From positions 1 through 31,226 of the IMG/VR virus record IMGVR_UViG_3300022916_000060: a stretch of 31,226 bases of DNA. One strand, given 5' to 3'. Below the pieces are notes generated by a model that searched no databases, had not been told where the DNA came from, and was given only the letters and a program-made list of their open reading frames with translations. The position numbers were made by a program, and so were the translations under genes. Shown in pieces: positions 3,261 to 29,911 of the stretch. Source of the stretch: a virus. Each line of letters opens with the position of its first letter. Position 1 is the stretch's first letter.

Positions 3261-3557
3261 ATGGAAATTATTACAGCCTGGATAATGTCTCATCTAGCTG
3301 TTTCGATTGGAGGCAGCATTGGGGTGGTCATTCTGACTTGGATCTTGAAAAAGGTTCCGACAGAAACGATCAGAGACAAGATCCACAAAGTCTTTTTTGC
3401 GATTGGAGCCGGGATCTCAGGATTTTTTATCAAATGGAAATATACCAAGGCATTTTGGAACAGCACGTTTGAGCCTTGGCTTATTGGATTCTTGGATATG
3501 ATAATTGTTGCAGCGATGCAAGGTCTCTTCGATGGTCTCCGATCCGATAACGAGTGA
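3261..3557 (+). CDS. Small membrane protein, possible holin
   Basis: A 98-residue protein with strong SD AAAGGAGG 5' of the ATG. Hydrophobic stretches at about residues 10-28 (HLAVSIGGSIGVVILTWIL) and 45-58, plus an amphipathic C-terminus ending in charged residues, fit a phage holin or membrane-anchored accessory lysis protein. It lies downstream of another small membrane protein and immediately before the tRNA gene. No family is recognised. Confidence 0.5.
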   Translation: MEIITAWIMSHLAVSIGGSIGVVILTWILKKVPTETIRDKIHKVFFAIGAGISGFFIKWKYTKAFWNSTFEPWLIGFLDMIIVAAMQGLFDGLRSDNE

Positions 3558-3560
3558 ATA

Positions 3561-3634
3561 AGCGCCTATAGCTCAACGTCAGAGCGACTTGCTTCCAGCA
3601 AGGAGACACGGTTCAACTCCGGAATGGCGCTCCA
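3561..3634 (+). tRNA. tRNA-Gly(TCC)-like gene with encoded CCA
   Basis: A 74-base cloverleaf candidate. Acceptor AGCGCC (3561-3566) pairs with GGCGCT (3626-3631), followed by an encoded CCA (3632-3634). The D-arm is GCTC/GAGC. The anticodon loop CTTCCAG (3592-3598) gives anticodon TCC, which reads GGA. The anticodon stem has four good pairs and one A-G mismatch. The T-loop TTCAACT is canonical but only three T-stem pairs are good, so the gene may be weak or degenerate. It sits between the lysis-type genes and the Mom-fusion gene. Confidence 0.65.
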
Positions 3635-3646
3635 ACTTAGGGGATC

Positions 3647-5005
3647 ATGTTTTTTGGAACCACGCCACAGGTTATCTCGCAGTATCTTTTCAAAGAGTTA
3701 AAACAGCACTCACCCAAAAGGGTCTATATTCCATTTGCCGGTAATTTCGTTGTCGAGCAAATCGCTTACAAGGCCTGTCCTACCGCAGAAATCCACAGCA
3801 CAGATGTCAGCATTTATTCCAGGGCCATTGGTTTGGGAGTGAATGATATGGACTTCAAACTGGAAATCAAATCGGAGTTTCAGGAAGATTTCTCCCATCT
3901 CGTCGGCAAAGAGGATCCACTTGAGAAAGCAGCGATTGTGATCTTTTTTACAGAGGTCGCTCCAGCAATGCTAAAGAAAGGGAAGATCCAGTATTACCAG
4001 AATATGTATGACGAGGCAATCGATCTGCAGGAGATGTATTTCGGGAAGATTCTGGAGAAACTGAAACAGTTTAAAGCCGAGTCGAAATTCAAGTTTTACG
4101 GTGTCGACGCATGTGATATTCTGCCGGATTGTAAGAAAGGTGATTTTGTGTTCTACGATCCCCCGGTGATCCTGGGAGATTACGAAAAGATGTATGCTGC
4201 GATGGAGGACTGTCTGGATTTTGATTCAGTGGGATATACTGAAATAACAGAGGAAATCAAAGAAGCACATCTGAAGGATTTATCGTACAAAGGTTGCATG
4301 GTTTACTGGCGAACGAATAATCCTGTGATTCCCCCTGAGGAACTGGAAGAAGTTTATCGGTATACCTACAAATGGGGAGGCAATTATTGCCTGTACTCGA
4401 ACGAGTATTTCCAGAAGTTTGTTGGTCGATGGAGCCCATTGAAAGAGATCGTGAAAAACATCCGGATTATCGGGAAGGATGATGTGATCACCGAGAAGTC
4501 AAAGGTTGAGATTATTGAGCAGCCGTCAGCAGTCGGTAATCATTATCGAATGATGTGGACAAAGAAGGCCCAGATGACGGACAGCGGATATTGTTTCCTG
4601 ATCATGGTGGACGAGAAACTGATCGGGATGGTGCAGCTTGCCGATAGCCTGAAATTCGGAAGTGAGCTAATGATCATCAACAGTGATCCCGCAGCTCCGA
4701 CGAGCAGGTACAAAAGGTTGAGCAAATTGGTGTTGTACCTGATCTGTAATAAGCAGGTAATCAAGATCATCAACGACAAAATCATGTGGGAGCATACCGG
4801 ATTCACGACACGGATCTTCAGCAACAATCCGATGTCGATGAAATACCGGAGTTTGTTCAAACTGGCAAAGCGAGAAGAGGACAAAACGAGCGACTACAAA
4901 TTCTGCCTAATCTACCAGAACCGGGATAAGATATTTGATACCCCCGAGGATGGTCTGAAGATATGGGTGCAAAAAGAATCCAAACACGTTAAAGCCGATG
5001 GATGA
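3647..5005 (+). CDS. Methyltransferase-like N-terminus fused to Mom-like acyltransferase domain (DNA modification)
   Basis: A 452-residue protein. The N-terminal half looks like a class I methyltransferase fold: a motif-I-like strand and loop VYIPFAGNFVVE (about residues 26-37), an acidic HSTDVS (50-55), and DFVFYDPPV (166-174), a DPPY-type motif IV with Val in place of the aromatic. The C-terminal region (about 299-452) resembles phage Mu Mom, a GNAT-fold enzyme that modifies adenine: a strand DEKLIGMVQLAD (322-333), then SDPAAPTSRYKRLSKLVLYL (346-365). Mom protects phage DNA from host restriction. Adjacent genes are ParB-like and terminase, placing the enzyme beside packaging. The SD is AGGGG. 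Whether the methyltransferase half is active is uncertain. Confidence 0.7.
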   Translation: MFFGTTPQVISQYLFKELKQHSPKRVYIPFAGNFVVEQIAYKACPTAEIHSTDVSIYSRAIGLGVNDMDFKLEIKSEFQEDFSHLVGKEDPLEKAAIVIFFTEVAPAMLKKGKIQYYQNMYDEAIDLQEMYFGKILEKLKQFKAESKFKFYGVDACDILPDCKKGDFVFYDPPVILGDYEKMYAAMEDCLDFDSVGYTEITEEIKEAHLKDLSYKGCMVYWRTNNPVIPPEELEEVYRYTYKWGGNYCLYSNEYFQKFVGRWSPLKEIVKNIRIIGKDDVITEKSKVEIIEQPSAVGNHYRMMWTKKAQMTDSGYCFLIMVDEKLIGMVQLADSLKFGSELMIINSDPAAPTSRYKRLSKLVLYLICNKQVIKIINDKIMWEHTGFTTRIFSNNPMSMKYRSLFKLAKREEDKTSDYKFCLIYQNRDKIFDTPEDGLKIWVQKESKHVKADG

Positions 5006-12083: not shown

Positions 12084-12368
12084 ATGGAAAGGAAATATCT
12101 GAAGATGTACGCTGATCGGGTTTCGAAGATTGACGGTTTGGTTGCTGCTGGTCTTTTCAAATCCCGATCAGAGTTTATCCGTCATGTCGTAAACGAGGAA
12201 CTGGAGGATGGTCTTGGGAATATCCGAAGAGTGAGCGTTACGATGGAAGAAAAAGATATACGGAAACTGGATAAAATTGCTAAAAAACAGTTCGGAGGGA
12301 AGATTTCTGGAGCAATTGAGTTCGGAATCGGAAAATATCTGGCAAAAATAGCGACAAAAGGCGATTAA
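12084..12368 (+). CDS. Ribbon-helix-helix-type regulator
   Basis: A 94-residue basic protein with SD AAGGAG. The N-terminal half (YADRVSKIDGLVAAGLFKSR, then SEFIRHVVNEEL) and C-terminal half (RVSVTMEEKDIRKLDKIAKK, ending GAIEFGIGKYL) both have the strand-helix-helix pattern of RHH DNA-binding proteins, suggesting a tandem or elongated form. It precedes a non-coding region with palindromes at 12396 and 12405, which it could bind. Last gene of the promoter-2 operon. Confidence 0.6.
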   Translation: MERKYLKMYADRVSKIDGLVAAGLFKSRSEFIRHVVNEELEDGLGNIRRVSVTMEEKDIRKLDKIAKKQFGGKISGAIEFGIGKYLAKIATKGD

Positions 12369-20563: not shown

Positions 20564-20694
20564 GCTGCTCCGTAGGGAAAGAAAACCCCTAAGTTAAACT
20601 TTTGAGAATGGATACATTAACGAGGTGATCCAAATTGTATAAAAGTAGGCGATACTCCTAAGCGGGTGCAGGTATCAAATCCTGCCGGGGCAGT
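20564..20694 (+). ncRNA. tRNA-like RNA element 1 (enlarged interior)
   Basis: Acceptor helix GCTGCTCCG (20564-20572) pairs with CGGGGCAGT (20686-20694), 9 bp including two G-T. The T-arm GCAGG/CCTGC (20668-20672, 20681-20685) has an 8-base loop TATCAAAT. Between them lie 95 bases with a D-arm-like stem TAGGG/CCCTA (20573-20577, 20587-20591), a long stem ACTTTT/AAAAGT (20598-20603, 20641-20646) and TAGG/CCTA, but no normal anticodon arm. Length 131 nt rules out a simple tRNA. A near-identical 3' end recurs at 26853-26879. Confidence 0.6.
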
Positions 20695-20712
20695 TCAAAA
20701 TCAGGAGAGATT

Positions 20713-20925
20713 ATGGAATGTGCAAAGTGCAATGAAAAGAAGGGCGATGAAGAGATTGTCGCAAACGAAGAAGAAAAATTCAAAGCATGGCTGGAAACGA
20801 TCAATGCAGAAGCTCGTCGTGATTATGTGATGTTAGGCCCGATGGGGATGGTCAGTTTCGCCAGGAAAGCATGGTTAGCCGGGAGAGTTGATTTGATCGA
20901 TGAGCTTAAAGTGAGAGGGATATGA
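20713..20925 (+). CDS. Small protein after tRNA-like element 1
   Basis: A 70-residue protein with SD AGGAG, 18 bases after the tRNA-like element. It starts ECAKCNEKKG (one CxxC) followed by helical residues (EEEKFKAWLETINAEARRDY). The single Cys pair is not a full ribbon. The stop overlaps the MazG-like gene start. No family is recognised. Confidence 0.5.
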   Translation: MECAKCNEKKGDEEIVANEEEKFKAWLETINAEARRDYVMLGPMGMVSFARKAWLAGRVDLIDELKVRGI

Positions 20926-21254
20926 CTGGATTTATAAAAAGTTACAATGAACTTGCCGGATATGTGAACGACATGGCGATTCAAAAAGGATGGTGGAAGG
21001 GGGATCGGAATAACGGTGAGATGATAGCATTGATGCACTCAGAATTGAGCGAATGCCTTGAAGGTCTAAGACATGGTAATCCTCCGAGCGATCATATTCC
21101 TGAGTTTTCTGCAGTTGAAGAAGAGCTGGCTGATGTCATTATTCGGATAATGGATTTCGGACATGCCAAAGGTCATAAGATTGCCGAGGCGTTGATCGCG
21201 AAGATTCAGTTTAATTCTGGCCGAGAATACAAACACGGAGGCAAGGAGTTCTGA
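20922..21254 (+). CDS. MazG-like NTP pyrophosphohydrolase (copy 1)
   Basis: A 110-residue all-alpha protein. The ExxE box SELSECLEGLRHG and the later EEELADVIIRIMDFG (ExxxD) match the metal-binding pattern of the MazG/dUTPase superfamily; NGEMIALMHSE precedes it. These enzymes hydrolyse NTPs to NMP and pyrophosphate; in phages they are suggested to influence nucleotide pools or (p)ppGpp signalling. A second copy lies at 26437. It overlaps the preceding gene by 4 bp. Confidence 0.85.
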   Translation: MTGFIKSYNELAGYVNDMAIQKGWWKGDRNNGEMIALMHSELSECLEGLRHGNPPSDHIPEFSAVEEELADVIIRIMDFGHAKGHKIAEALIAKIQFNSGREYKHGGKEF

Positions 21255-21255
21255 C

Positions 21256-21609
21256 ATGGGATATTTTAGCAATGGTTCAGAAGGTTGCAGCTACGAGGCT
21301 GCATACTGTGATAAATGTGTTCATCAACATCCGAAAAATGGTTGTCCCTGTTGGGATGCCCATATGCTCTGGAATTACGATGAATGCAATAATAAGGAAT
21401 CGATTCTGCATAAGATGATCCAGCGAAGTGAGGACGGATTGAGCAATACGCAGTGTTCGTTTTATGTCCCGAGAGATAAAGGAGAGAGTGCAGCCGGGAT
21501 CATTAATAAGCTGGCAGCGTTTGATCCAGAAGAGTTCGGCCTTCTCTGGGCAAGGAAAACATTTGCAGAAAAGAAGCTGTTTGAAGATTGGCTGAAGGGG
21601 ATGATATGA
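21256..21609 (+). CDS. Cysteine-rich phage protein
   Basis: A 117-residue protein starting MGYFSNGSEGCSYEAAYCDK and continuing with CxxC and CPC clusters: CDKCVHQHPKNGCPCWDAHM. A similar YFSNG...YCxxC...YDEC layout is seen in many phages of unknown function and probably binds zinc. The C-terminus (RKTFAEKKLFEDWLKGM) is helical. Only one base separates it from the MazG-like gene. Likely co-translated with the HNH gene downstream. Confidence 0.65.
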   Translation: MGYFSNGSEGCSYEAAYCDKCVHQHPKNGCPCWDAHMLWNYDECNNKESILHKMIQRSEDGLSNTQCSFYVPRDKGESAAGIINKLAAFDPEEFGLLWARKTFAEKKLFEDWLKGMI

Positions 21610-22070
21610 AAAATGAGATTGAGAAACCAACATTCCACGGTGAAATTGGGACGAGGCTTTACAATATTTGGGGAGCGATGAAAACCAGATGCAGAAATAA
21701 AAATAGTCCTGAATATAAAAATTACGGCGGAAGAGGGATAAGATATTGCGATGAATGGAGCGCATACATCCCCTTTCGAGATTGGGCTTTGGCAAATGGA
21801 TACCGAGATGATCTCACTATTGACCGCATTGATAATGAAAGAAATTATGAGCCATCTAATTGTTGTTTTATTCCATTCTCAGAAAACGCAAAGAAAAGAC
21901 GGAACACCACGTTGAATTTGGAAAAAGCAAATGAAATTAGAGATATGTATGGAACAGGTTCATATTTCCAACATGAGCTTTCGGTTATTTTTGGAGTCTG
22001 TACTTCCTCAATAAATAATATAATAAAAAACAGAACATGGAAAAACCAGCATTCCCAAAGCCAGGATTAA
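21606..22070 (+). CDS. HNH-type homing endonuclease-like protein
   Basis: A 154-residue protein starting at ATG 21606, overlapping the previous stop. The N-terminal module RLYNIWGAMKTRCRNKNSPE, then YNYGGRG-like NYGGRGIRYCDEWSAYIPF, LTIDRIDNERNYEPSNCCFI is typical of small phage HNH/AP2-type homing proteins; DRIDN and the Asn/Cys pair carry the catalytic region. The C-terminal HTH-like end contains SVIFGVCTSSINNIIKN. It overlaps another HNH gene by 34 bp and may have invaded that gene's 5' end. Confidence 0.75.
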   Translation: MKNEIEKPTFHGEIGTRLYNIWGAMKTRCRNKNSPEYKNYGGRGIRYCDEWSAYIPFRDWALANGYRDDLTIDRIDNERNYEPSNCCFIPFSENAKKRRNTTLNLEKANEIRDMYGTGSYFQHELSVIFGVCTSSINNIIKNRTWKNQHSQSQD

Positions 22071-22504
22071 AGAAATCAAAAGCGGATAAGAAGCGAAAAC
22101 GACCAAAGCAATTGACTAAAGATCAGAGAATGGAGATTTACAAAAAATACGACGGTCGCTGTGCTTACTGTGGCAAGGGTTTAGATTATGGAGAGATGGA
22201 GGTCGATCATTTGGTTCCGGTAAGAAATTTTAGTGATCCTAATGATGCGAATTTTGATGATAATCTTATGCCGGCCTGTCGCCGATGCAATGGATACAAA
22301 AGGGCCACGAAGTTGGGATACTTCCGAATGCTGCTTACCACCATACATCAGAGAGTAATGAATGACTATTTGGTGAAGGTTGCCAGAGATTACGGAGTCA
22401 TTGAATTCCATCCCTTCGACGGTGTTTTCTATTTCGAGAAGGTGAAGAAAGGGGAACAATATGCCGATAAAGCCCGGAATCAATTGCCGGGGAAAGTTGA
22501 ATAA
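22037..22504 (+). CDS. HNH endonuclease
   Basis: A 155-residue protein. The N-terminus is basic (KKSKADKKRKRPKQLTKDQR). The HNH core is RCAYCGKGLDYGEMEVDHLV, PACRRCNGYKRA near residues 48-97: two CxxC pairs around the VDHLVP motif, as in McrA-type HNH nucleases. Its ATG lies inside the preceding HNH gene with no SD, and GAAAAACCAGCATTCC there echoes the start of that gene. An independent start is doubtful. Confidence 0.8.
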   Translation: MEKPAFPKPGLKKSKADKKRKRPKQLTKDQRMEIYKKYDGRCAYCGKGLDYGEMEVDHLVPVRNFSDPNDANFDDNLMPACRRCNGYKRATKLGYFRMLLTTIHQRVMNDYLVKVARDYGVIEFHPFDGVFYFEKVKKGEQYADKARNQLPGKVE

Positions 22505-22573
22505 TATCAGATTGCAAATGCGATGGACTCCTCCAGGAACTATCAATCCTATGTTTCGAGACTTATGGTTTTA

Positions 22574-22589
22574 TGGCATACCGTCTGCA
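22574..22589 (+). promoter_or_regulatory. Sigma54-type (-24/-12) promoter 3
   Basis: TGGCATACCGTCTGCA, GG at 22575-22576 and GC at 22587-22588, 10 bases apart. It shares ACCGTCTGCATTG with promoter 2 and the downstream GGTATGA and A-rich leader with both others. The gap is 135 bases long between the HNH gene and the next start; nothing else is seen in it. Confidence 0.65.
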
Positions 22590-22639
22590 TTGTTAGAGGT
22601 ATGACTAAAAAAACCAAAAACTCGAAAAAAGGCTTTAAA

Positions 22640-22834
22640 ATGAACAAACCGTATTCAGCTTGCAAAAAGGAATCAAAGGCGCATAGCTGGCAACCCGCAT
22701 TAAGCCAAGGTTGTCCGATATTAGCCGGTGTCTATCCAGTAGGTCTGAAACAATTGCTGGAATGTGTAAATGACGATTGCTACGAAACCAAGTGGATTTA
22801 CTTAAAAGACGGAAAAATCAGGAGGGGAAAATGA
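22640..22834 (+). CDS. Small cysteine-containing protein, first gene of promoter-3 operon
   Basis: A 64-residue protein. ATG 22640 is preferred over the in-frame ATG 22601, which would lie at the predicted transcription start of promoter 3; the SD (AAGGC) is weak. Cys residues occur as single and paired positions (YSACKKES, LSQGCPILAG, LLECVNDDCYETKW), possibly metal-binding. It ends in an ATGA overlap with the next gene. Confidence 0.5.
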   Translation: MNKPYSACKKESKAHSWQPALSQGCPILAGVYPVGLKQLLECVNDDCYETKWIYLKDGKIRRGK

Positions 22835-23013
22835 GTCGAACGAAACTGCTGAACATGAAATGGAATAATTGTCACAGAATCGAACTTTGGGAAATCCACG
22901 AAGCGTACATGGTGAAAGTTGTCACTTTACATCCTGACGGTGGCGGTCGGTTGATCATGAAGAAATACCGCGATCACAAGGAATCTGCTGAAAAACTGTT
23001 TGAACAAGCATAG
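22831..23013 (+). CDS. Small hypothetical protein
   Basis: A 60-residue protein; ATG 22831 has SD GGAGGGG and overlaps the previous stop. It contains HRIELWEIHEAYMVKVVTLH and a basic helical end (KKYRDHKESAEKLFEQ). No motif is recognised. Nine bases separate it from the next gene. Confidence 0.55.
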   Translation: MSRTKLLNMKWNNCHRIELWEIHEAYMVKVVTLHPDGGGRLIMKKYRDHKESAEKLFEQA

Positions 23014-23022
23014 GAGGAGAAA

Positions 23023-23421
23023 ATGAGTTACTACGACGATCACAGAGTAAGAGCCGGAGAACGTGAAGAGGTTTTTACCGATATCGACGAGCAGAACATG
23101 ACCTGCACGATGCGTCTCGAATATGAAGAGCCGGTCGAGGTTAAATTTCGCTGGACTGTCTGTCCGACATGCGACGGAAAGGGTTCACACGTTAATCCGA
23201 GTATCGACTGCGACGGATTGACAGCCAGCGATTTTGAAGATGAGGAATTCAAAGAATCGTATTTTTCAGGTGTCTACGATGTTGTTTGTGCCGAATGCAA
23301 TGGAAACCGAGTTGTTCCTGAGTTGATAGATCCTGAAGATATTAAGATGTTAAACGAGTACCACTCTGAAATGTGGGAATATGAGGCTGAACGAGCAGCC
23401 GAAAGAAGGATGGGGGCATAA
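23023..23421 (+). CDS. DnaJ-type cysteine-rich zinc-binding protein
   Basis: A 132-residue protein with SD AGGAGG. Residues ~47-54 CPTCDGKG and ~90-97 CAECNGNR have the CxxCxGxG pattern of the DnaJ central zinc finger, with an acidic linker between. There is no J-domain. Small phage proteins with this pattern are common; they may bind zinc and a protein partner. The stop overlaps the next ATG by one base. Another such protein lies at 25382. Confidence 0.65.
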   Translation: MSYYDDHRVRAGEREEVFTDIDEQNMTCTMRLEYEEPVEVKFRWTVCPTCDGKGSHVNPSIDCDGLTASDFEDEEFKESYFSGVYDVVCAECNGNRVVPELIDPEDIKMLNEYHSEMWEYEAERAAERRMGA

Positions 23422-23636
23422 TGGCCAGACAGTTTTATGAAATCAGTCGAGATGAAAAATGTATCGGCCTTTATAAAACGAACAGAGGGCTGGTGAAGCG
23501 ATTGAATTTGATATTCAAAAGCAAACTGTTTTTGTATTCAGTGATTTTGTGGGACGGTTCCCCGAATAGCCCACATTCAGGGATCAAAGACATAATCAAC
23601 GCCGAGGAGTATATGGCGAGAGAGGAGGGGAAATGA
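23421..23636 (+). CDS. Small hypothetical protein
   Basis: A 71-residue protein, start coupled to the previous stop (TAATG). It carries FYEISRDEKCIGLYKTNRGL and a beta-rich centre, ending in an acidic helix. No motif is recognised. Its stop overlaps the next ATG. Confidence 0.55.
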   Translation: MARQFYEISRDEKCIGLYKTNRGLVKRLNLIFKSKLFLYSVILWDGSPNSPHSGIKDIINAEEYMAREEGK

Positions 23637-23806
23637 AAATGGTATTGACTTTTAAAACGCCAGATGTTCTCGATCAATTGCCGGATAATGACGAAGATGC
23701 CGACAAGATCAGAGAGATTGCCAAAAAGTATGTGGAATATGGCGAATATCTGAGTGTTGAAATTGATTCAGATGACGGTACGATAACCGTTTTGGAGGTA
23801 GAATGA
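23633..23806 (+). CDS. Small acidic protein (57 aa)
   Basis: A 57-residue reading frame with strong SD GAGGAGGGG and an ATGA overlap on both sides. It begins MKMVLTFKTPDVLDQLPDND and has an acidic middle and a beta-like end. Overlap spacing and SD strength support translation. Such short DUF-like proteins are common in phages; the function is unknown. Confidence 0.55.
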   Translation: MKMVLTFKTPDVLDQLPDNDEDADKIREIAKKYVEYGEYLSVEIDSDDGTITVLEVE

Positions 23807-23988
23807 CCGAAGAACAAAAAGCACTCCTGCAGGGAGAGATTGAAAACTGCCTGGAGTTCTGCGGATGTGTAAAAGAAACGATTGACGATTTTTGTCAAAC
23901 CGAGGCCATTGATCAGGAGGAGTTTGAAAAAGAGATCGATGCCGTCAGTTTTGCAGCGCACACGGAATTTCACGGATGGGTTGTATGA
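23803..23988 (+). CDS. Small hypothetical protein with Cys residues
   Basis: A 61-residue acidic helical protein starting in an ATGA overlap, with SD TTGGAGG. Cys residues cluster as NCLEFCGCVK. The end overlaps the radical SAM gene start by 4 bp, which may couple their translation. No recognised family. Confidence 0.5.
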   Translation: MTEEQKALLQGEIENCLEFCGCVKETIDDFCQTEAIDQEEFEKEIDAVSFAAHTEFHGWVV

Positions 23989-24500
23989 AGATCGCGAGAC
24001 TGATCACGACGTTTGACTGCATTCGAGATTGCGAGTTTTGCGTCAACAAAGTGCCGAGGATTATGGATCAGGGATATTGTATAAAGCCTGAAGATTTAAA
24101 GACGATAGGCCATTACGATATGGTTTTGATAACTGGTGGCGAACCGATGCTCGATCCAGAAAGAACTTTGACTATAATAAAAAGATTGAAGGCCTGGAAT
24201 CCGGCGCAGAAGATTTATTTGTACTCCTCGATTCCAGTTCAACACAATCGAGTTCTTGACCATCTCGACGGAATGACTTATACAATCCATAAGGAAAGCA
24301 GTCCAATGGATCTAGCGACGATTCAGGCGACATTAATGCTGCATCCTAACAGATCCTATCGGTTGAACATCGATCCGGAATATCGTCAGGATCTAAAGAT
24401 CAAACCGTATTTGTGGGAAAAGATCAAAATCAAAATATGGTATGACTTTAAGATGGTGAACATACCCGAAAACGAAACCCTATTCATTTTGGAGGAGTGA
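23985..24500 (+). CDS. Short radical SAM protein
   Basis: A 171-residue protein; ATG 23985 is preferred to 23976 because of the ATGA overlap. CIRDCEFCVN supplies CxxxCxxC (Cys 12, 16, 19) for a 4Fe-4S cluster, and LITGGEP (49-54 region) is the GGE motif that binds SAM. The rest resembles a truncated radical SAM barrel, shorter than typical family members (about 200-250 aa). QueE-like or activase-like roles are possible, but no Que pathway or ribonucleotide reductase genes are in the window. Substrate is unknown. Confidence 0.75.
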   Translation: MKIARLITTFDCIRDCEFCVNKVPRIMDQGYCIKPEDLKTIGHYDMVLITGGEPMLDPERTLTIIKRLKAWNPAQKIYLYSSIPVQHNRVLDHLDGMTYTIHKESSPMDLATIQATLMLHPNRSYRLNIDPEYRQDLKIKPYLWEKIKIKIWYDFKMVNIPENETLFILEE

Positions 24501-24754
24501 TGGGCAAAGCTGATAATGTTGATATAATCGAATCGAAAATGATGAAAAGAGGCCGGAAAAGAGGACTCGCTGCATTTAATCCATCCAGATCATTCTTAGA
24601 GATGGCGGTTGAAGAGTTTTTGTGCGCTGGTGGAGTGATTAATAGGATTGAGCTAAAGCCGAAAACAAGGGAGCAGATTCTGAGTGATACCAATGGGTTA
24701 AATGAAGTTGACGAATTCCTGGGATTCGACTGTGGCATTTCTGACACTCCGTAG
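24500..24754 (+). CDS. Hypothetical protein
   Basis: An 84-residue protein; ATG 24500 follows GGAGGAG and overlaps the previous stop (TGATG); a GTG three bases earlier is an alternative. It is basic at the start (SKMMKRGRKRGLAAFNPSRS) and acidic toward the end. A helical DNA-binding-like N-terminus is possible but no motif is recognised. Confidence 0.5.
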   Translation: MGKADNVDIIESKMMKRGRKRGLAAFNPSRSFLEMAVEEFLCAGGVINRIELKPKTREQILSDTNGLNEVDEFLGFDCGISDTP

Positions 24755-24763
24755 GGGGTAAAG

Positions 24764-25021
24764 ATGAGAAAGATATTATTGCTGCTGGCTGTGTTTATCC
24801 TGTCCAGTTTTACTGAAGTAGAGAGATATAAGATATTTTATCGGTTCCCAATTAATGCGAATTGTAAGGTGATTGAAACGGGAGGAAGAAGCTACAAGGC
24901 ATGTTGGTCGCTTTGGGGTCCTGATTCGATTGAAGAGAAGGCTGCAGAATTCAGGATGACTCCCGATTTGATCAGAAGAGAGATCAGGAGTGAGTGTTCT
25001 TATTCAAAAATTTGGTGGTAA
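24764..25021 (+). CDS. Small secreted or periplasmic protein
   Basis: An 85-residue protein with an N-terminal signal-like segment (RKILLLLAVFILSSFTEV), charged start then a hydrophobic core, followed by a soluble part with two Cys (NCKVIETGG, KACWSLWG) that may form a disulfide, plus a third Cys near the end. SD GGGGG. Export across the inner membrane is inferred. No lipobox is evident and no family is recognised. Confidence 0.55.
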   Translation: MRKILLLLAVFILSSFTEVERYKIFYRFPINANCKVIETGGRSYKACWSLWGPDSIEEKAAEFRMTPDLIRREIRSECSYSKIWW

Positions 25022-25058
25022 AATTATAACCGATATTATAACCACAATTGGAGAAAAT

Positions 25059-25190
25059 ACCGCTGTGCGAGAGTCTGGTAATCGTGCCTTGAAACAAGTA
25101 GGTAAAGGTCAGGACGCTGACTGTGACGAAAAAAGGTAAAACTGGTGTGCGACTGTAACACTAGGCGCAGGTTCAAATCCTGTCAGCGGT
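25059..25190 (+). ncRNA. tRNA-like RNA element 2 (enlarged interior)
   Basis: Acceptor ACCGCTG (25059-25065) pairs perfectly with CAGCGGT (25184-25190). The T-arm GCAGG/CCTGT (25167-25171, 25179-25183) has the canonical loop TTCAAAT. A D-arm-like stem CGA/TCG with a GG-bearing loop follows the acceptor. Between them are extra hairpins GTCAG/CTGAC (25109 region) and CTGGTGT/ACACTAG (25142 region). The 5-bp arm TGCCT/AGGTA has a 10-base loop, so there is no normal anticodon. Length is 132 nt. The 3' end TTCAATA is not CCA. Confidence 0.6.
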
Positions 25191-25215
25191 TCAATAACTA
25201 CATTGGGAGAAAATT

Positions 25216-25359
25216 ATGGGGAAACAATTATTAGTTGAAAAGATAAGGGGCTTTATTGGATCAATAGGTTTTAGTATTTTTCTTTGGTCTGTAAAAATGA
25301 ATGTTGATGAGTACCATAACGAGATAATTCGTCAAAGTTACGCAGATGAATATCCGTAA
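25216..25359 (+). CDS. Small membrane protein (47 aa)
   Basis: A 47-residue protein not listed among the long frames. It starts ATG 25216 with SD GGGAG and has one hydrophobic stretch (FIGSIGFSIFLWSVK, about 13-27) that could be a membrane helix. It follows tRNA-like element 2 by 25 bases. Function unknown. Confidence 0.45.
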   Translation: MGKQLLVEKIRGFIGSIGFSIFLWSVKMNVDEYHNEIIRQSYADEYP

Positions 25360-25381
25360 AACCAAACGGAGATTGTGAAGG

Positions 25382-25579
25382 ATGAGTGAAGAAATAGAAT
25401 GCGATGAATGTAACGGGACTGGGCAAGAAATATGTGATAACCCTGATCATGGCTTCATTGGTGCAGTTGCCGGCGAAACTGGAAGGCTTGGTTGTCCAGT
25501 ATGCGGGCACGACGAATTGCATAGAGTAGCCGGGACAACTTGCGGAAAGTGTGACGGTACAGGAACAGTTAAAGTGTAG
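25382..25579 (+). CDS. DnaJ-type cysteine-rich mini protein
   Basis: A 65-residue protein, SD GAAGG. Two zinc-finger boxes, CDECNGTG (residues ~8-15) and CGKCDGTG (~54-61), plus CPVCG between, match the DnaJ central domain repeats (CxxCxGxG). It has no J-domain. It shares a repeated 5' junction (ACCAAACGGAG...GAAGGATGA) with the genes at 25961 and 26187. A zinc-binding accessory role is inferred. Confidence 0.65.
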   Translation: MSEEIECDECNGTGQEICDNPDHGFIGAVAGETGRLGCPVCGHDELHRVAGTTCGKCDGTGTVKV

Positions 25580-25611
25580 CTACAACTAAACTATAACTAC
25601 AACGGGGGATT

Positions 25612-25971
25612 ATGAGAATTTATTACTTTGGATGCAGGGGAGAAGTTGGCCATTATCTACATGACCCAAAAGGTGGTCGCTCTTTAGATTGGCGGTTTTT
25701 GCCTTGGGGGAAAATAGATGGTGGATTGTGCCCCGATGGAACCAGAGATCAAGGTATAACTGAGCTTCATCAAAAAGACGGCTGGACTGCTTTAGCATTC
25801 TGGGATTACTCAATAGATAAAAGACCAGGGAGCAATAGCGTTTTTTTCTATGAGGATTTGCTTGAGTTCGACCAGATGGTTAGAGAATTTCAGGAACACT
25901 TTCCTGATGTTGTGAACCGCTTTAATTTTCCAATCATAGAGAAACCAAACGGAGCGAAGGATGACACCTGA
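25612..25971 (+). CDS. Hypothetical phage protein
   Basis: A 119-residue soluble protein with SD GGGGG. It starts MRIYYFGCRGEVGHYLHDPK and contains many aromatic residues and Gly turns; a similar RIYxFGCxGxxGHYL start is seen in phage proteins of unknown function. The last residues (KPNGAKD) are encoded by a repeat shared with the next junction. It overlaps the next gene by 11 bp. Confidence 0.55.
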   Translation: MRIYYFGCRGEVGHYLHDPKGGRSLDWRFLPWGKIDGGLCPDGTRDQGITELHQKDGWTALAFWDYSIDKRPGSNSVFFYEDLLEFDQMVREFQEHFPDVVNRFNFPIIEKPNGAKDDT

Positions 25972-26194
25972 AGAATGGGTTTTAACATATACTAGAGAGG
26001 ATCTGCACCCAGAAGATTTATATACTTTTGAGGATATGGAAGAAGCGTACAAGGCAGGTCAGAAAAATCCCCCATACCGCTTTGAAAATGTTAACAAAGC
26101 ATGGGAGTCAGAAGAAGCGAAAGTGTTTGCTGGTTATATATGCGGATTTAGAGCAGCAAGAGAAATGAAACCAAACGGAGTGAAGGATGAGTGA
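25961..26194 (+). CDS. Small hypothetical protein
   Basis: A 77-residue acidic protein starting at ATG 25961 after GAAGG. It has TYTREDLHPEDLYTFEDMEE and a Gly-containing helical end (FAGYICGFRAAREMKPNGVK). The end residues KPNGVKD repeat the end of the preceding protein through duplicated DNA. Function unknown. Confidence 0.55.
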   Translation: MTPEEWVLTYTREDLHPEDLYTFEDMEEAYKAGQKNPPYRFENVNKAWESEEAKVFAGYICGFRAAREMKPNGVKDE

Positions 26195-26405
26195 AGAAAA
26201 ATTAAGGATGGATGCTTATTATTATGATTTTACCGAAACCGGAGTAAGGTGCATTGATGAAATACTTTCGGCAGTCGCAACGGCTGGTAAAGGGTACCAC
26301 CACACATCCGATTGGAATGATAAGGATGAAGGGGAATCTTCTGAAGTTGAAAAAATACAACTAGCAGCGAATCGAGCTGCCGTATTATTCAAAGCCAAAG
26401 TGTAG
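26187..26405 (+). CDS. Small hypothetical protein
   Basis: A 72-residue acidic protein; ATG 26187 uses SD AAGG inside the preceding gene. It reads MSEEKLRMDAYYYDFTETG and an Ala-rich helical C-terminus. The segment after the stop (TAGTTATAATT) resembles the one after the DnaJ-type gene. No family is recognised. Confidence 0.55.
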   Translation: MSEEKLRMDAYYYDFTETGVRCIDEILSAVATAGKGYHHTSDWNDKDEGESSEVEKIQLAANRAAVLFKAKV

Positions 26406-26436
26406 TTATAATTCTACTTATTTAACAGGAGAAACA

Positions 26437-26739
26437 ATGCCTAAAACGATCAGAGAATGGCAAAAGGAAGTCCACGACAATTCAGTTAAACACGGCTTTT
26501 GGGAAGGAAAGGGGTGGTCAGATGTTCCAGAAAAATTATGCCTAATTCATTCTGAGGTTTCAGAAGCACTTGAGGCATTTCGGAAAGGTGACAATGTAAA
26601 TTTTGCTGAAGAATTGGCAGATACAGCAATTAGGGTGTTTGATCTAGCTGAACATTTTGGGATCGATTTGGATTCTGAAATTGGTGAAAAACACGCAGTA
26701 AATCTGAAGCGTCCGTATAAGCACAACAAATTGATATAA
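26437..26739 (+). CDS. MazG-like NTP pyrophosphohydrolase (copy 2)
   Basis: A 100-residue all-alpha protein with SD AGGAG. LCLIHSEVSEALEAFRKG and FAEELADTAIRVFDLAEHF give the ExxE and ExxxD metal-binding pairs. It is only distantly similar to the copy at 20922, so the two were probably acquired separately or have diverged. Two related copies in one window suggest control of nucleotide pools. It ends 7 bases before tRNA-like element 3. Confidence 0.85.
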   Translation: MPKTIREWQKEVHDNSVKHGFWEGKGWSDVPEKLCLIHSEVSEALEAFRKGDNVNFAEELADTAIRVFDLAEHFGIDLDSEIGEKHAVNLKRPYKHNKLI

Positions 26740-26745
26740 CCAGAT

Positions 26746-26879
26746 GCTGCCCCGTGGCTGAAGTCGCATTGAAGATGGGAGAATTAAAGCGTGTGAGTGA
26801 TAACAATGGTTATCCGGTAGCAGCTCCCGAAATCTCCGGAGTTAGTAGGGTTGCAGGTATCGAATCCTGCCGGGGCAGT
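26746..26879 (+). ncRNA. tRNA-like RNA element 3 (enlarged interior)
   Basis: Acceptor GCTGCCCCG (26746-26754) pairs with CGGGGCAGT (26871-26879), 9 bp with one G-T. The T-arm GCAGG/CCTGC (26853-26857, 26866-26870) has loop TATCGAAT. The interior holds a long hairpin GGGAG/CTCCC with an inner perfect GATAAC/GTTATC hairpin (loop AATG). There is no clear anticodon arm. Its last 40 bases are close to element 1. A GTG frame crosses it but starts inside the acceptor and is not convincing. Confidence 0.6.
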
Positions 26880-26894
26880 TCAACAGGAGAGAAG

Positions 26895-27215
26895 ATGTTT
26901 GAATATTGCGATATATGCGGTAAACGTCACCATCCATCAGCAGCTTGTGGGGATATACCAATAGGAGGAAAGATGACTTTTGAAGATGCTTTAAGAGAGG
27001 AAAAGAAAAATTTTCATCCTGATCTAATGACGGAAGAAGAAATTGAAGAATTCAGAAATGGATACAAGGCAGCAGAGCAATCCACCCATGAGGTTTATAA
27101 ATCATTTCTAGGTGCTTACGAATTCTTGAAGAACAAAGATGATCCTCACAAATTCCTAGAAATGTTCATGAAACAAGCTGATGCAGCACTTGAAAAAATA
27201 AAGGAGGGGAAATGA
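26895..27215 (+). CDS. Hypothetical protein with zinc-knuckle-like N-terminus
   Basis: A 106-residue protein; ATG 26895 has SD AGGAGAG. It starts FEYCDICGKRHHPSAACGD (CxxC, HH and a further Cys), a small zinc-binding unit. ATG 26973 has an even stronger SD (AGGAGG) and would give a shorter protein, so internal initiation is possible. The rest is helical (FEDALREEKKNFHPDLMTEE). It overlaps the next gene by 4 bp. Confidence 0.55.
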   Translation: MFEYCDICGKRHHPSAACGDIPIGGKMTFEDALREEKKNFHPDLMTEEEIEEFRNGYKAAEQSTHEVYKSFLGAYEFLKNKDDPHKFLEMFMKQADAALEKIKEGK

Positions 27216-27823: not shown

Positions 27824-28558
27824 ATGAGAATCGTGCCAATCATTCAGTGTCGCATGGAGAGTACCCGATTGCCGGGAAAAGCCATGCTATCGCTTGCCGG
27901 AAAACCTGCCTTACAGCGTGTGATCGAGAGAGTCAGAAATTCGTTCTGGTGTCTAAACCCCATAGTAGCAACTTATTTGTCTGAGAAAAATATCGAACTG
28001 ATTCCCGTTGCCCATGAAGCTGGCGCCGGAATCTATTTGTTCGATGGCGATCCGGATAATGTTTTGGAAAGGATTTATCGGTGTGCGAAAGAATATGGAA
28101 TTGATGTCATTGTTGAGATCACCGCTGACTGTCCATTGATCGATCCGGATATTATGGATGATGTGATCGAGCGATTCATCAGTGATAAAGCGGTTGATTA
28201 TGCCTCCAATGTTGGGATCAGGTCGTTTCCTGATGGGTTAGATGTGCAAGTTTACTCCTTTACCGCATTAGATCAAATCAGGAATAAGATCCTGAATCCG
28301 ATCCATGTCGGTTGGAATATCATGCAAGACTCGTCATTTCGATGTGCTAATATCGAAGCAAAAGGAGAGTTGAAATGGCCTGATCTCCGCATTACGTTAG
28401 ATACGCCAGAGGATTATGCGTTGATTGATATCATCTGGCATCACTTCAGATCCACGCCTGGATTTACTGCATTGGATGTTGTCAGGTTTTTGAAGGCACA
28501 TCCGAACCTGTTGGAATTAAATCGCAGTGTGAAAACCAAAGCACCGGAGGAAGGATGA
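27824..28558 (+). CDS. SpsF-like cytidylyltransferase-type nucleotidyltransferase
   Basis: A 244-residue protein with SD AGGAG. The N-terminus IIQCRMESTRLPGKAMLSLA is the nucleotide-binding loop of the KdsB/NeuA/SpsF superfamily, and IVEITADCPLIDPDIMDDVI carries the metal-binding Asp. These enzymes activate acidic or amino sugars with CTP (or another NTP) for surface glycans. The gene sits near a Gfo/Idh/MocA oxidoreductase, a pairing seen in some surface-sugar loci. No glycosyltransferase is visible here, so the final acceptor is unknown. Confidence 0.8.
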   Translation: MRIVPIIQCRMESTRLPGKAMLSLAGKPALQRVIERVRNSFWCLNPIVATYLSEKNIELIPVAHEAGAGIYLFDGDPDNVLERIYRCAKEYGIDVIVEITADCPLIDPDIMDDVIERFISDKAVDYASNVGIRSFPDGLDVQVYSFTALDQIRNKILNPIHVGWNIMQDSSFRCANIEAKGELKWPDLRITLDTPEDYALIDIIWHHFRSTPGFTALDVVRFLKAHPNLLELNRSVKTKAPEEG

Positions 28559-28746
28559 CACAAGAATCACCGACAGCTCCACCACAGCCGACTAAAACAG
28601 TGACACTTGAAAGGCTGGTTGAAGTTTTTGAGCTATGGCAAAGAGATACTGCTGGAATTGCGACGGATGCCAAAACGATAATCGATGTTTGGCAAGGTAA
28701 GGATTACCCGAGGCATTGCGCTCATTATCTTTGGGAGAAGATGTGA
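28555..28746 (+). CDS. Small hypothetical protein
   Basis: A 63-residue protein coupled by ATGA overlap to the nucleotidyltransferase. The N-terminus is Pro/Thr-rich (QESPTAPPQPTKTVTLERLV), then helical with Trp residues. No motif is recognised. Its stop overlaps the next GTG start. Confidence 0.5.
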   Translation: MTQESPTAPPQPTKTVTLERLVEVFELWQRDTAGIATDAKTIIDVWQGKDYPRHCAHYLWEKM

Positions 28747-28967
28747 ACAACACTGCAGCCAGACCATACAGAGTCACGTTTATTGATGATCAGGAGTTTA
28801 TTGTTTATGCCTATGAAGCCCAGGATGCAATGGTTCAGGCATGTGTCGATTATGCGAATCTGTTGAATCAGGAAGTCCCTGCATTGAAAAAGATCGAGGC
28901 GTATTACCAGAAGAAGGTGGGACTATTTGATCGGCGTTTGACTTCCAATGAAAAAAAGAGAGGATGA
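28743..28967 (+). CDS. Small hypothetical protein, GTG start
   Basis: A 74-residue protein from GTG 28743 (SD GGGAG), chosen because of the GTGA overlap. It has beta-strand text (YRVTFIDDQEFIVYAYEAQD) then a helix (AMVQACVDYANLLN) and a basic end. This resembles small phage adaptor-like proteins. Its end overlaps the oxidoreductase start. Confidence 0.5.
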   Translation: MNNTAARPYRVTFIDDQEFIVYAYEAQDAMVQACVDYANLLNQEVPALKKIEAYYQKKVGLFDRRLTSNEKKRG

Positions 28968-29911
28968 TGAAAAATTACACAGCAACGATTATCGGAGCCG
29001 GTTCCATTGGAGCGTTGAAGCCAGAGTCAAAGGACAAAAAGGATAAACGGACTGTCCCTCTAACCCACGGACACGCATGTTGGGCGCACAAGAGAATCGA
29101 TCTGGTGAGCATTTTTGATGAGGATCATAGGAAAGCAAAGGAAGCCGGAGAGAAATGGGATTGTGGCTGGTCGTCAATTGTGACTTCAGAGGCAGATATT
29201 ATGATCGTGGCAGTGCCGACGAAATTCCATCTGGAGGTTGTGAAGCATTGTGCTGATATGAAACCGAAGTTGATTATCTGTGAGAAGCCGTTTGGCATGG
29301 ATCTTAATGAAGCGATGTGGATGCACGGTTATTGTGAGGCTGCTGGAGTCCCGCTAATGGTCGATTACTCCAGAAGATTTGAAGCATTCCATCAGGGAGT
29401 TTATGAGAAACTGAGTAAGCCTGGAGTTGAGATTTACAACGCGAGAGTGATTTACGGTCGAGGATTGAAGCATGATGGATCTCACGCTATTGATCTCTGC
29501 AATTGGTGGTTTGGTGCATTGGAGGGAGCAGCGCCAAAACATACGCCGATTTATGATAGAGATGGCGATGACCCGACCCTGACAACTGATTTTGTGTATG
29601 GGAGATGCCCTTATGTGGTTTTCACCGGAGTCGATGGCCGGAAAGCCTACACGTTCGAGATAGATGTAATCAGCTCAGTCGGAAGGTTCCAGTTTTACCA
29701 GTACGGAACTAGATTGGCGACTTATCCGATAGAGAACGAAAGTATTTACGGCAGCTATCCGCAATTGGGAATGCCGAAAACTCAGGCAACGAACATGGGA
29801 TGGAATCTGCATTTTATGTTGGAAAACGCAGTCAAATACCTGGACGGCTCAGAGGATCTGAAATGTGATGCGGAAGATGCGATTGCTGTCCATAAAGTTT
29901 TGGAGGGATGA
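28964..29911 (+). CDS. Gfo/Idh/MocA-family oxidoreductase
   Basis: A 315-residue protein. The N-terminal Rossmann fold has IIGAGSIGALKP (GxGxxG, residues 11-16), a second-strand IFDEDH, then ADIMIVAVPT and LIICEKPFGMDLNEA, the conserved EKP site. KHDGSHAIDLCNWWFG fits the catalytic His-Asp region. Members use NAD(P) to oxidise or reduce sugars. The ATGATG start at 28964-28969 leaves two possible Met. Paired with the SpsF-like gene, it suggests a small sugar pathway for surface glycan change; this is inference. Confidence 0.82.
   Translation: MMKNYTATIIGAGSIGALKPESKDKKDKRTVPLTHGHACWAHKRIDLVSIFDEDHRKAKEAGEKWDCGWSSIVTSEADIMIVAVPTKFHLEVVKHCADMKPKLIICEKPFGMDLNEAMWMHGYCEAAGVPLMVDYSRRFEAFHQGVYEKLSKPGVEIYNARVIYGRGLKHDGSHAIDLCNWWFGALEGAAPKHTPIYDRDGDDPTLTTDFVYGRCPYVVFTGVDGRKAYTFEIDVISSVGRFQFYQYGTRLATYPIENESIYGSYPQLGMPKTQATNMGWNLHFMLENAVKYLDGSEDLKCDAEDAIAVHKVLEG

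Follow-up and report, generated by a model that had tools for sequence, protein, structure and literature searches.

What is the nature of three intergenic elements, E1, E2 and E3, that resemble enlarged tRNAs in the DNA of a tailed phage? The DNA, referred to here as the window, is a contig of 31,226 bases (virus record IMGVR_UViG_3300022916_000060) that carries a T4-type baseplate gene as well as genes for a terminase, an exonuclease, ERF and a replication initiator. An original prediction had placed three enlarged tRNA-like RNAs there, neither ordinary tRNAs nor tmRNAs. We find that E1–E3 almost certainly belong to a phage-wide family of tRNA-like RNAs. On balance we favour a reading in which this family is derived from or modelled on tRNA-Leu, is processed, and acts in trans, perhaps as decoys.

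Three elements and the family they belong to

The window was searched with a descriptor requiring 7/7 acceptor pairs, T8, R9, A14, a 3-bp D-stem, 5/5 T-stem pairs and a TATCRA or TTCRA loop. Exactly three matches were obtained, all on the + strand, with 0 on the − strand and 0 in 60 dinucleotide-shuffled windows. All three predicted elements are therefore present, with their limits refined (Table 1), and the acceptor helix and 5-bp T-arm ascribed to them are completely paired in each. The prediction had overlooked a D-arm: each element has one of 3 bp, together with a 15/48 Levitt pair (A-T in E1 and E3, G-C in E2). The T-loop is of the tRNA type, as claimed, in E2 alone, which has the canonical 7 nt; that of E1 and E3 has 8 nt (TATCRAAT). 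Likewise, the tRNA elbow (D-loop G18G19 with T54-T55-C56) is present in E2 and absent in E1 and E3, whose acceptors are lengthened by a C-G pair at −1/73. The proposed common tail GTTCAA did not hold up, since it is offset by one base in E2, while E1 and E3 have in common a 56-nt 3′ repeat of 80% identity that runs on into the next ribosome-binding site. The cores of these two elements are unrelated.

Neither ARAGORN nor Rfam 15 reported an RNA at threshold in the window, which bears out the exclusion of ordinary tRNAs and tmRNAs. The best Rfam match was E2 with the tRNA model (RF00005), at 20.1 bits and below the cut-off of 29; E1 and E3 gave none. The z-scores of the minimum free energy were modest (−3.3, −1.6 and −1.9 for E1, E2 and E3), so thermodynamics by itself is insufficient as proof of the elements. 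Model R1, trained without E1 or E3, found their T-arms (E = 4e-4 and 1e-4, respectively). A possible fourth element at 12114-12169 (R1 17.9 bits) has no T-stem, lies inside an open reading frame (ORF) and was taken as a chance match.

The prediction had proposed a search for the shared 3′ end in other phages. In viral contigs, 118 stretches contain the 18-nt T-arm common to E1 and E3, GCAGGTATCRAATCCTGC; most of them are RNAs built as E1 and E3 are and not ordinary tRNAs. These RNAs, class A, have a common plan: acceptor, TG, the D-arm TGGCGGAAG-TAGACGC (a tRNA-Leu D-arm without G18G19), a variable core, T and the T-arm. A strict descriptor yielded 66 unique members with the T-loop TATCRAAT. 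E1 and E3 are included and satisfy all class A criteria (7-bp acceptor, T8 R9, 3-bp D-stem with A14 A15, T48, 8-nt T-loop); E2 does so except for the type of T-loop and for G15-C48 in place of A15-T48. The D-arm motif alone, TGGCGGAAGNTAGACGC, was found in 101 stretches, many of which carry the same T-loop on T-stems of different sequence. A canonical-elbow subtype, to which E2 corresponds, was recovered in four loci (L239, L240, L242 and L244) with a model whose training set came from the other subtype. The D-arm scan also revealed a sister class, class B (28 members), in which the T-arm consists of CRT and a 7-bp stem with the loop TGNRAGT; stem length and distance to the acceptor are identical in 28/28, although neither was imposed.

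Members also occur in cultured phages. A 76-nt copy in phAPEC8 (60020-60095, 35.6 bits, E = 1e-7 with a model that had not seen it) is unannotated, lies between tRNA-Asn and tRNA-Thr, and is kept at ≥95% identity in 85 records (phAPEC8 and 84 others; most of these phages come from E. coli). An unannotated member of 119 nt is present in Lactobacillus phage SAC12B, and further copies are present in Paenibacillus, Clostridia and Weeksellaceae genomes; SPO1, SPBc2, crAss001, Felix O1 and PBS1 were searched and contain no member. A structured RNA family is thus present in phages of several host groups. Rfam and tRNA finders have missed it, owing to the absent anticodon arm and to a middle part that differs each time. 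A literature search (without bioRxiv and with few subscription papers) found no description of such a family. Non-coding RNAs that resemble tRNAs are known in general (tmRNA, T4 rnaC); this family, with exchanged cores and a rebuilt elbow, is absent from every resource searched.

Selection on the tRNA corner

In an unbiased test of pairing, D-arm and T-arm motifs were located separately and the adjoining 7-mers were then checked against each other. The flanking 7-nt strands pair at 6–7 of 7 positions in 57 of 74 loci, compared with ~4.5% for mismatched partners, and comprise 59 different 5′ strands. Among 28 members, two-sided changes were observed in 7/7 acceptor, 4/5 T-stem and 1/3 D-stem pairs; the 100% pairing in these counts was not used as evidence because the members had been selected for pairing. 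The class A D-stem occurs as GCG/CGC, GTG/CAC, GCT/AGC, GCC/GGC, GGG/CCC and ACG/CGT. Covariation among homologues, the point on which the original prediction had staked itself, is present, and the finding survives. The descriptor gave 0 matches in 1.9 Mb of reversed sequence.

Features of the tertiary fold are kept as well. Position 48 is T in 63/63 dissimilar class A members, though this was not required, and the 15/48 pair is A-T in 84 cases, G-C in 5 (E2 among these) and another combination in 1. The two elbow loops change together: with a TTC loop, the D-loop GG is present in 23 members and absent in 3, whereas with a TATC loop it is present in 15 and absent in 49 (p = 1e-8), in a sample that mixes T-anchored, D-anchored and incidental members and in which the D-anchored scan is biased against the trend. 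The elbow is thus jointly lost in most of the family. Pairing, covariation, T48, the 15/48 pair, the joint elbow changes and the clean controls together indicate selection on the corner of the tRNA L-shape; since T8-A14 and the 15-48 Levitt pair are kept, the L-shaped corner is probably retained.

These data bear directly on decaying tRNA pseudogenes, which could account for the tRNA-Leu signatures and for one phage (L227) in which several such RNAs lie beside two genuine tRNA-Leu(TAA) genes. Decay is contradicted by compensatory changes in all acceptor pairs, by the coordinated elbow changes and by T48 in every dissimilar member, and the 85 cultured phage records retain their copy. We regard this origin as very improbable.

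The kinship to bacterial tRNA-Leu (class II, RF00005) is seen in the 7-bp acceptor, T8, the D-arm TGGCGGAA..TAGACGC, A14, A15-T48 and the 5-bp T-arm. The family differs in having no anticodon arm, in the usual loss of G18G19, in a T-loop usually enlarged by an A, in an insert of 20-190 nt, and in not being called by ARAGORN or Rfam. Host-type tRNA-Leu scored ~30 bits with R1 and phage-type members >40; R1 also matches apparent host tRNA-Leu genes and was rejected as a specific finder in bacterial genomes.

Exchanged cores and the possible role of the RNAs

As predicted for E1–E3, the family has no anticodon arm. Canonical anticodon hairpins (5 bp, 7 nt, T33, R37) number 2 in 61 cores compared with 2.2 by chance, and in the shortest members (68-71 nt) the anticodon domain is replaced by ~20 nt. 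The RNAs are therefore unable to decode and are not intron-bearing tRNAs. A length of 130 nt would suit a tRNA with an intron, but the same two observations leave functional intron-bearing or split tRNAs with hardly any probability. Reduced tmRNAs fare no better: tmRNA (RF00023) also has tRNA-like ends without an anticodon arm, but the family is far shorter, no tag ORF or pseudoknots were recognised, and the Rfam tmRNA model gave no match at threshold, only a 17-nt sub-threshold match to a T-arm. In one locus (L018, 2720-2866) the core holds a tRNA-Val (aac) called by ARAGORN, a tRNA nested in a tRNA-like frame.

Constant ends around a variable core, first noticed in E1 and E3, turned out to be the rule of the whole family. 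Among 63 cores no 16-mer is common to any two, and no common motif was found. Two groups of phages share an acceptor and its genomic place, and within them flanks can be 81-99% identical while the cores agree no more, or little more, than by chance: L025 and L045 share 92% upstream, 48% in the core and 99% downstream, and L109 and L102 share 91% upstream and 57% in the core. Class B in Paenibacillus follows the same pattern, most matches spanning the query ends only. That near-identical phages carry different inserts at one and the same place suggests a strong pressure to diversify, which points to a host-phage conflict over tRNA recognition. The prediction had left open whether the elements are decoys or stabilisers; a full core swap at a fixed locus fits a trans-acting decoy or carrier better than a stabiliser in cis.

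The main rival is a small RNA on a tRNA scaffold, in which the frame gives processing and stability and the insert acts alone, for example by pairing with host RNA or binding protein. The strictly conserved frame, the replacement of inserts between near-identical phages and the tolerance of inserts of 20 to 190 nt all agree with such a carrier, as does the slightly greater stability of the cores relative to shuffles (mean z −0.68). Antisense matches of the cores to their own phage DNA were at chance level, however (9.5 vs 9.4 nt), there is no common core motif, and 5-bp hairpins show no clear excess (43 vs 37 ± 7 in 61 cores). We consider a carrier of this kind rather unlikely.

In class A, 10/66 members encode a 3′ NCCA compared with 1 expected (p = 8e-8). 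In L117 a phage gene for tRNA nucleotidyltransferase, the CCA-adding enzyme (ORF 3720-4739), is directly upstream of an element that encodes no CCA (3526-3651). The enrichment and the adjoining gene fit tRNA-type 3′ maturation. Of the roles offered by the original prediction (RNase P-processed mimics, stabilisers or decoys) none is proved, and these two findings agree with the processing part. It is likely that the RNA is excised and stable.

The same findings, with the tRNA-Leu D-arm and A15-T48, would suit a non-decoding tRNA-Leu mimic, charged by an anticodon-independent synthetase such as LeuRS, whose role would be to provide an amino acid or keep one hidden; LeuRS, SerRS and AlaRS need no anticodon. 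The discriminator base is mixed (A 29, T 18, C 13, G 6 in class A) and the acceptor sequence varies without constraint, which makes this role improbable.

Excision could also serve as RNA punctuation, as in mitochondria: RNase P and RNase Z would cut the fold to separate and protect the mRNAs of adjoining short ORFs. Consistent with this, the elements are mostly intergenic and co-directional with their neighbours (102 on the same strand, 18 on the opposite), and in the window, as predicted, each directly precedes a small ORF with a good Shine-Dalgarno sequence (SD). Punctuation gives no reason for the kept T8/A14 and 15/48 pairs, the joint elbow changes or the core swap, and 15/66 class A members overlap a mechanical ORF of ≥100 aa. 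We give it little credence.

In the reading we favour, E1–E3 and their relatives would descend from, or be modelled on, tRNA-Leu. The transcript folds as the upper part of a tRNA: the T-arm and a 7-bp acceptor form one stack, and a 3-bp D-arm, T8-A14 and the 15-48 pair are present. An exchangeable insert of 20-190 nt replaces the anticodon arm and sometimes also sits in the D-loop. In most members the elbow is rebuilt, either by loss of G18G19 with an extra T-loop A (TATCRAAT) or as a 7-bp T-arm with TGNRAGT. Fold, covariation, distribution, loss of the anticodon arm and core exchange are established by the data above, and the steps that follow are proposed. Host RNase P, RNase Z or 3′ exonucleases, and the CCA-adding enzyme would excise a stable RNA from the polycistronic transcript. 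This RNA would then work in trans, mimicking a tRNA to bind or occupy host proteins that recognise tRNA, most likely tRNA-cleaving or tRNA-sensing defence effectors, and the arms race would diversify the insert.

That the RNA is a trans-acting decoy is proposed tentatively, by analogy. Phage tRNAs are known to counter PtuAB (T5/T6 tRNA-Tyr) and PrrC (tRNA-Lys), which supports this step; PtuAB cuts tRNA-Tyr in the variable loop and PrrC is an anticodon system (PMC11555353, PMC13096335). The proposed likeness is that of a phage-made, tRNA-shaped RNA blunting a tRNA-cleaving effector. The anti-defence tRNAs decode, replacing or supplementing the cleaved tRNA, whereas the family RNAs cannot. A class II-like frame with a different middle in each phage is to be expected if a decoy or carrier is under pressure to diversify.

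Several points weigh against the favoured reading. If the RNAs were decoys of tRNA ends and nothing more, that alone would not explain the wholesale replacement of cores. The variable discriminator and acceptor imply no single aminoacyl-tRNA synthetase, and there is no fixed protein partner, the neighbours being terminase, portal, DNA polymerase, clamp loader, thymidylate synthase, endolysin and other genes. Excision, stability and the RNA ends of classes A and B are features that we infer, and E2 enters the family through the canonical-elbow form only. No relatives of the window, sought through its DUF2303 protein, or of E2, sought through its D-arm, were found in the viral contigs searched. 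In blastn against known phages, E3 gave short T-arm matches only, and the 25-31 kb region matched only 41 bases of a Staphylococcus phage gene. With no close relative or orthologue in the collections searched, E1–E3 are judged through the family.

T4 species 1 RNA and genomic surroundings

T4 species 1 RNA (rnaC, 139 nt) is a late transcript of unknown function that has been detected by northern blot (PMC9697503; also PMC3014915). It resembles the family in having a 7-nt acceptor (CGAUUCG/CGUUUCG) and a T-arm around a long core without an anticodon arm. It differs in that it has no tRNA-Leu D-arm (no T8/A14 pattern) and most acceptors have two U-U mismatches; R1 found no match in T4, rnaC included. 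Six rnaC homologues show compensatory changes in the acceptor and T-arm, the acceptor is perfect in Yersinia phage fHe-Yen9-01, and the T-loop is altered in two. The homologue in Salmonella phage Melville (L290, ~48-188, compared with L123) shares the acceptor, the T-arm and the 3′ half of the core with T4 rnaC but has an unrelated 5′ half, a possible core swap in T4 species 1 RNA. It is conceivable, though we put it forward with reserve, that modular anticodon-less mimics, widely encoded by phages, in which a conserved tRNA-Leu-type frame displays rapidly exchanged inserts in the infected cell, form an RNA counter-defence repertoire of which T4 species 1 RNA is a variant. This offers a concrete test for the old question of its role.

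Other phage non-coding RNAs are the C4 antisense RNA of P1/P7, which is processed by RNase P, and the GOLLD and ROOL RNAs, often near tRNA genes. Their folds are different, and none had an Rfam match in the window.

A general linkage of the family to tRNA clusters was rejected, as a tRNA called by ARAGORN lies within 1.5 kb of only 7/66 class A members. Two phages hold arrays of such RNAs, interspersed with short ORFs: L227, beside its tRNA-Leu(TAA) genes, and L197, which has five of them. Those of L197 include both canonical and altered elbows, and one is called tRNA-Leu by ARAGORN. Class B members, where classified (L182, L137, L167, L205), are repeatedly near a late activator or sigma factor gene. 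In L182, L167 and L216, from temperate phages, they are upstream of terminase genes, and one member adjoins tRNA-Ser.

Table 1. Positions of E1–E3, their parts and the ORFs that follow them in the window
Feature	Position	Strand	Details
E1, tRNA-like RNA, 127 nt	20566-20692	+	acceptor 20566-20572/20686-20692; T8A9
E1 D-arm	20575-20588	+	D-stem GGG/CCC; loop AAAGAAAA
E1 core	20589-20667	+	last base T48
E1 T-arm	20668-20685	+	8-nt loop TATCAAAT
ORF, 70 aa, directly 3′ of E1	20713-20925	+	SD aggag; without family match
E2, tRNA-like RNA, 132 nt	25059-25190	+	acceptor 25059-25065/25184-25190; T8G9
E2 D-arm	25068-25084	+	D-stem CGA/TCG; loop GAGTCTGGTAA; G18G19 retained
E2 core	25085-25166	+	last base C48
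E2 T-arm	25167-25183	+	canonical loop TTCAAAT (7 nt)
ORF, 47 aa, directly 3′ of E2	25216-25359	+	SD gggag; read from sequence
E3, tRNA-like RNA, 130 nt	26748-26877	+	acceptor 26748-26754/26871-26877; T8G9
E3 D-arm	26757-26790	+	D-stem GCT/AGC; enlarged 28-nt D-loop
E3 core	26791-26852	+	last base T48
E3 T-arm	26853-26870	+	8-nt loop TATCGAAT
ORF, 106 aa (from ATG), directly 3′ of E3	26895-27215	+	SD aggag

The frame of the ORF after E3 is incidentally open back across E3 (GTG 26754). Two genes for MazG-like pyrophosphatases (PHROG 3301) are located at 20922-21254, just after E1 and its ORF, and at 26437-26739, just before E3; the gene pair and the common 3′ ends of E1 and E3 hint at a segmental duplication. 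A translation-start module, GAAACCAAACGGAGNGAAGGATGA, is repeated before successive small ORFs (25941-25964, 26167-26190 and ~25360-25394). The window also encodes a radical-SAM-like 4Fe-4S protein (23976-24500) and, at 27824-29911, a cytidylyltransferase and a GFO/IDH/MocA oxidoreductase, which probably function in nucleotide-sugar metabolism.

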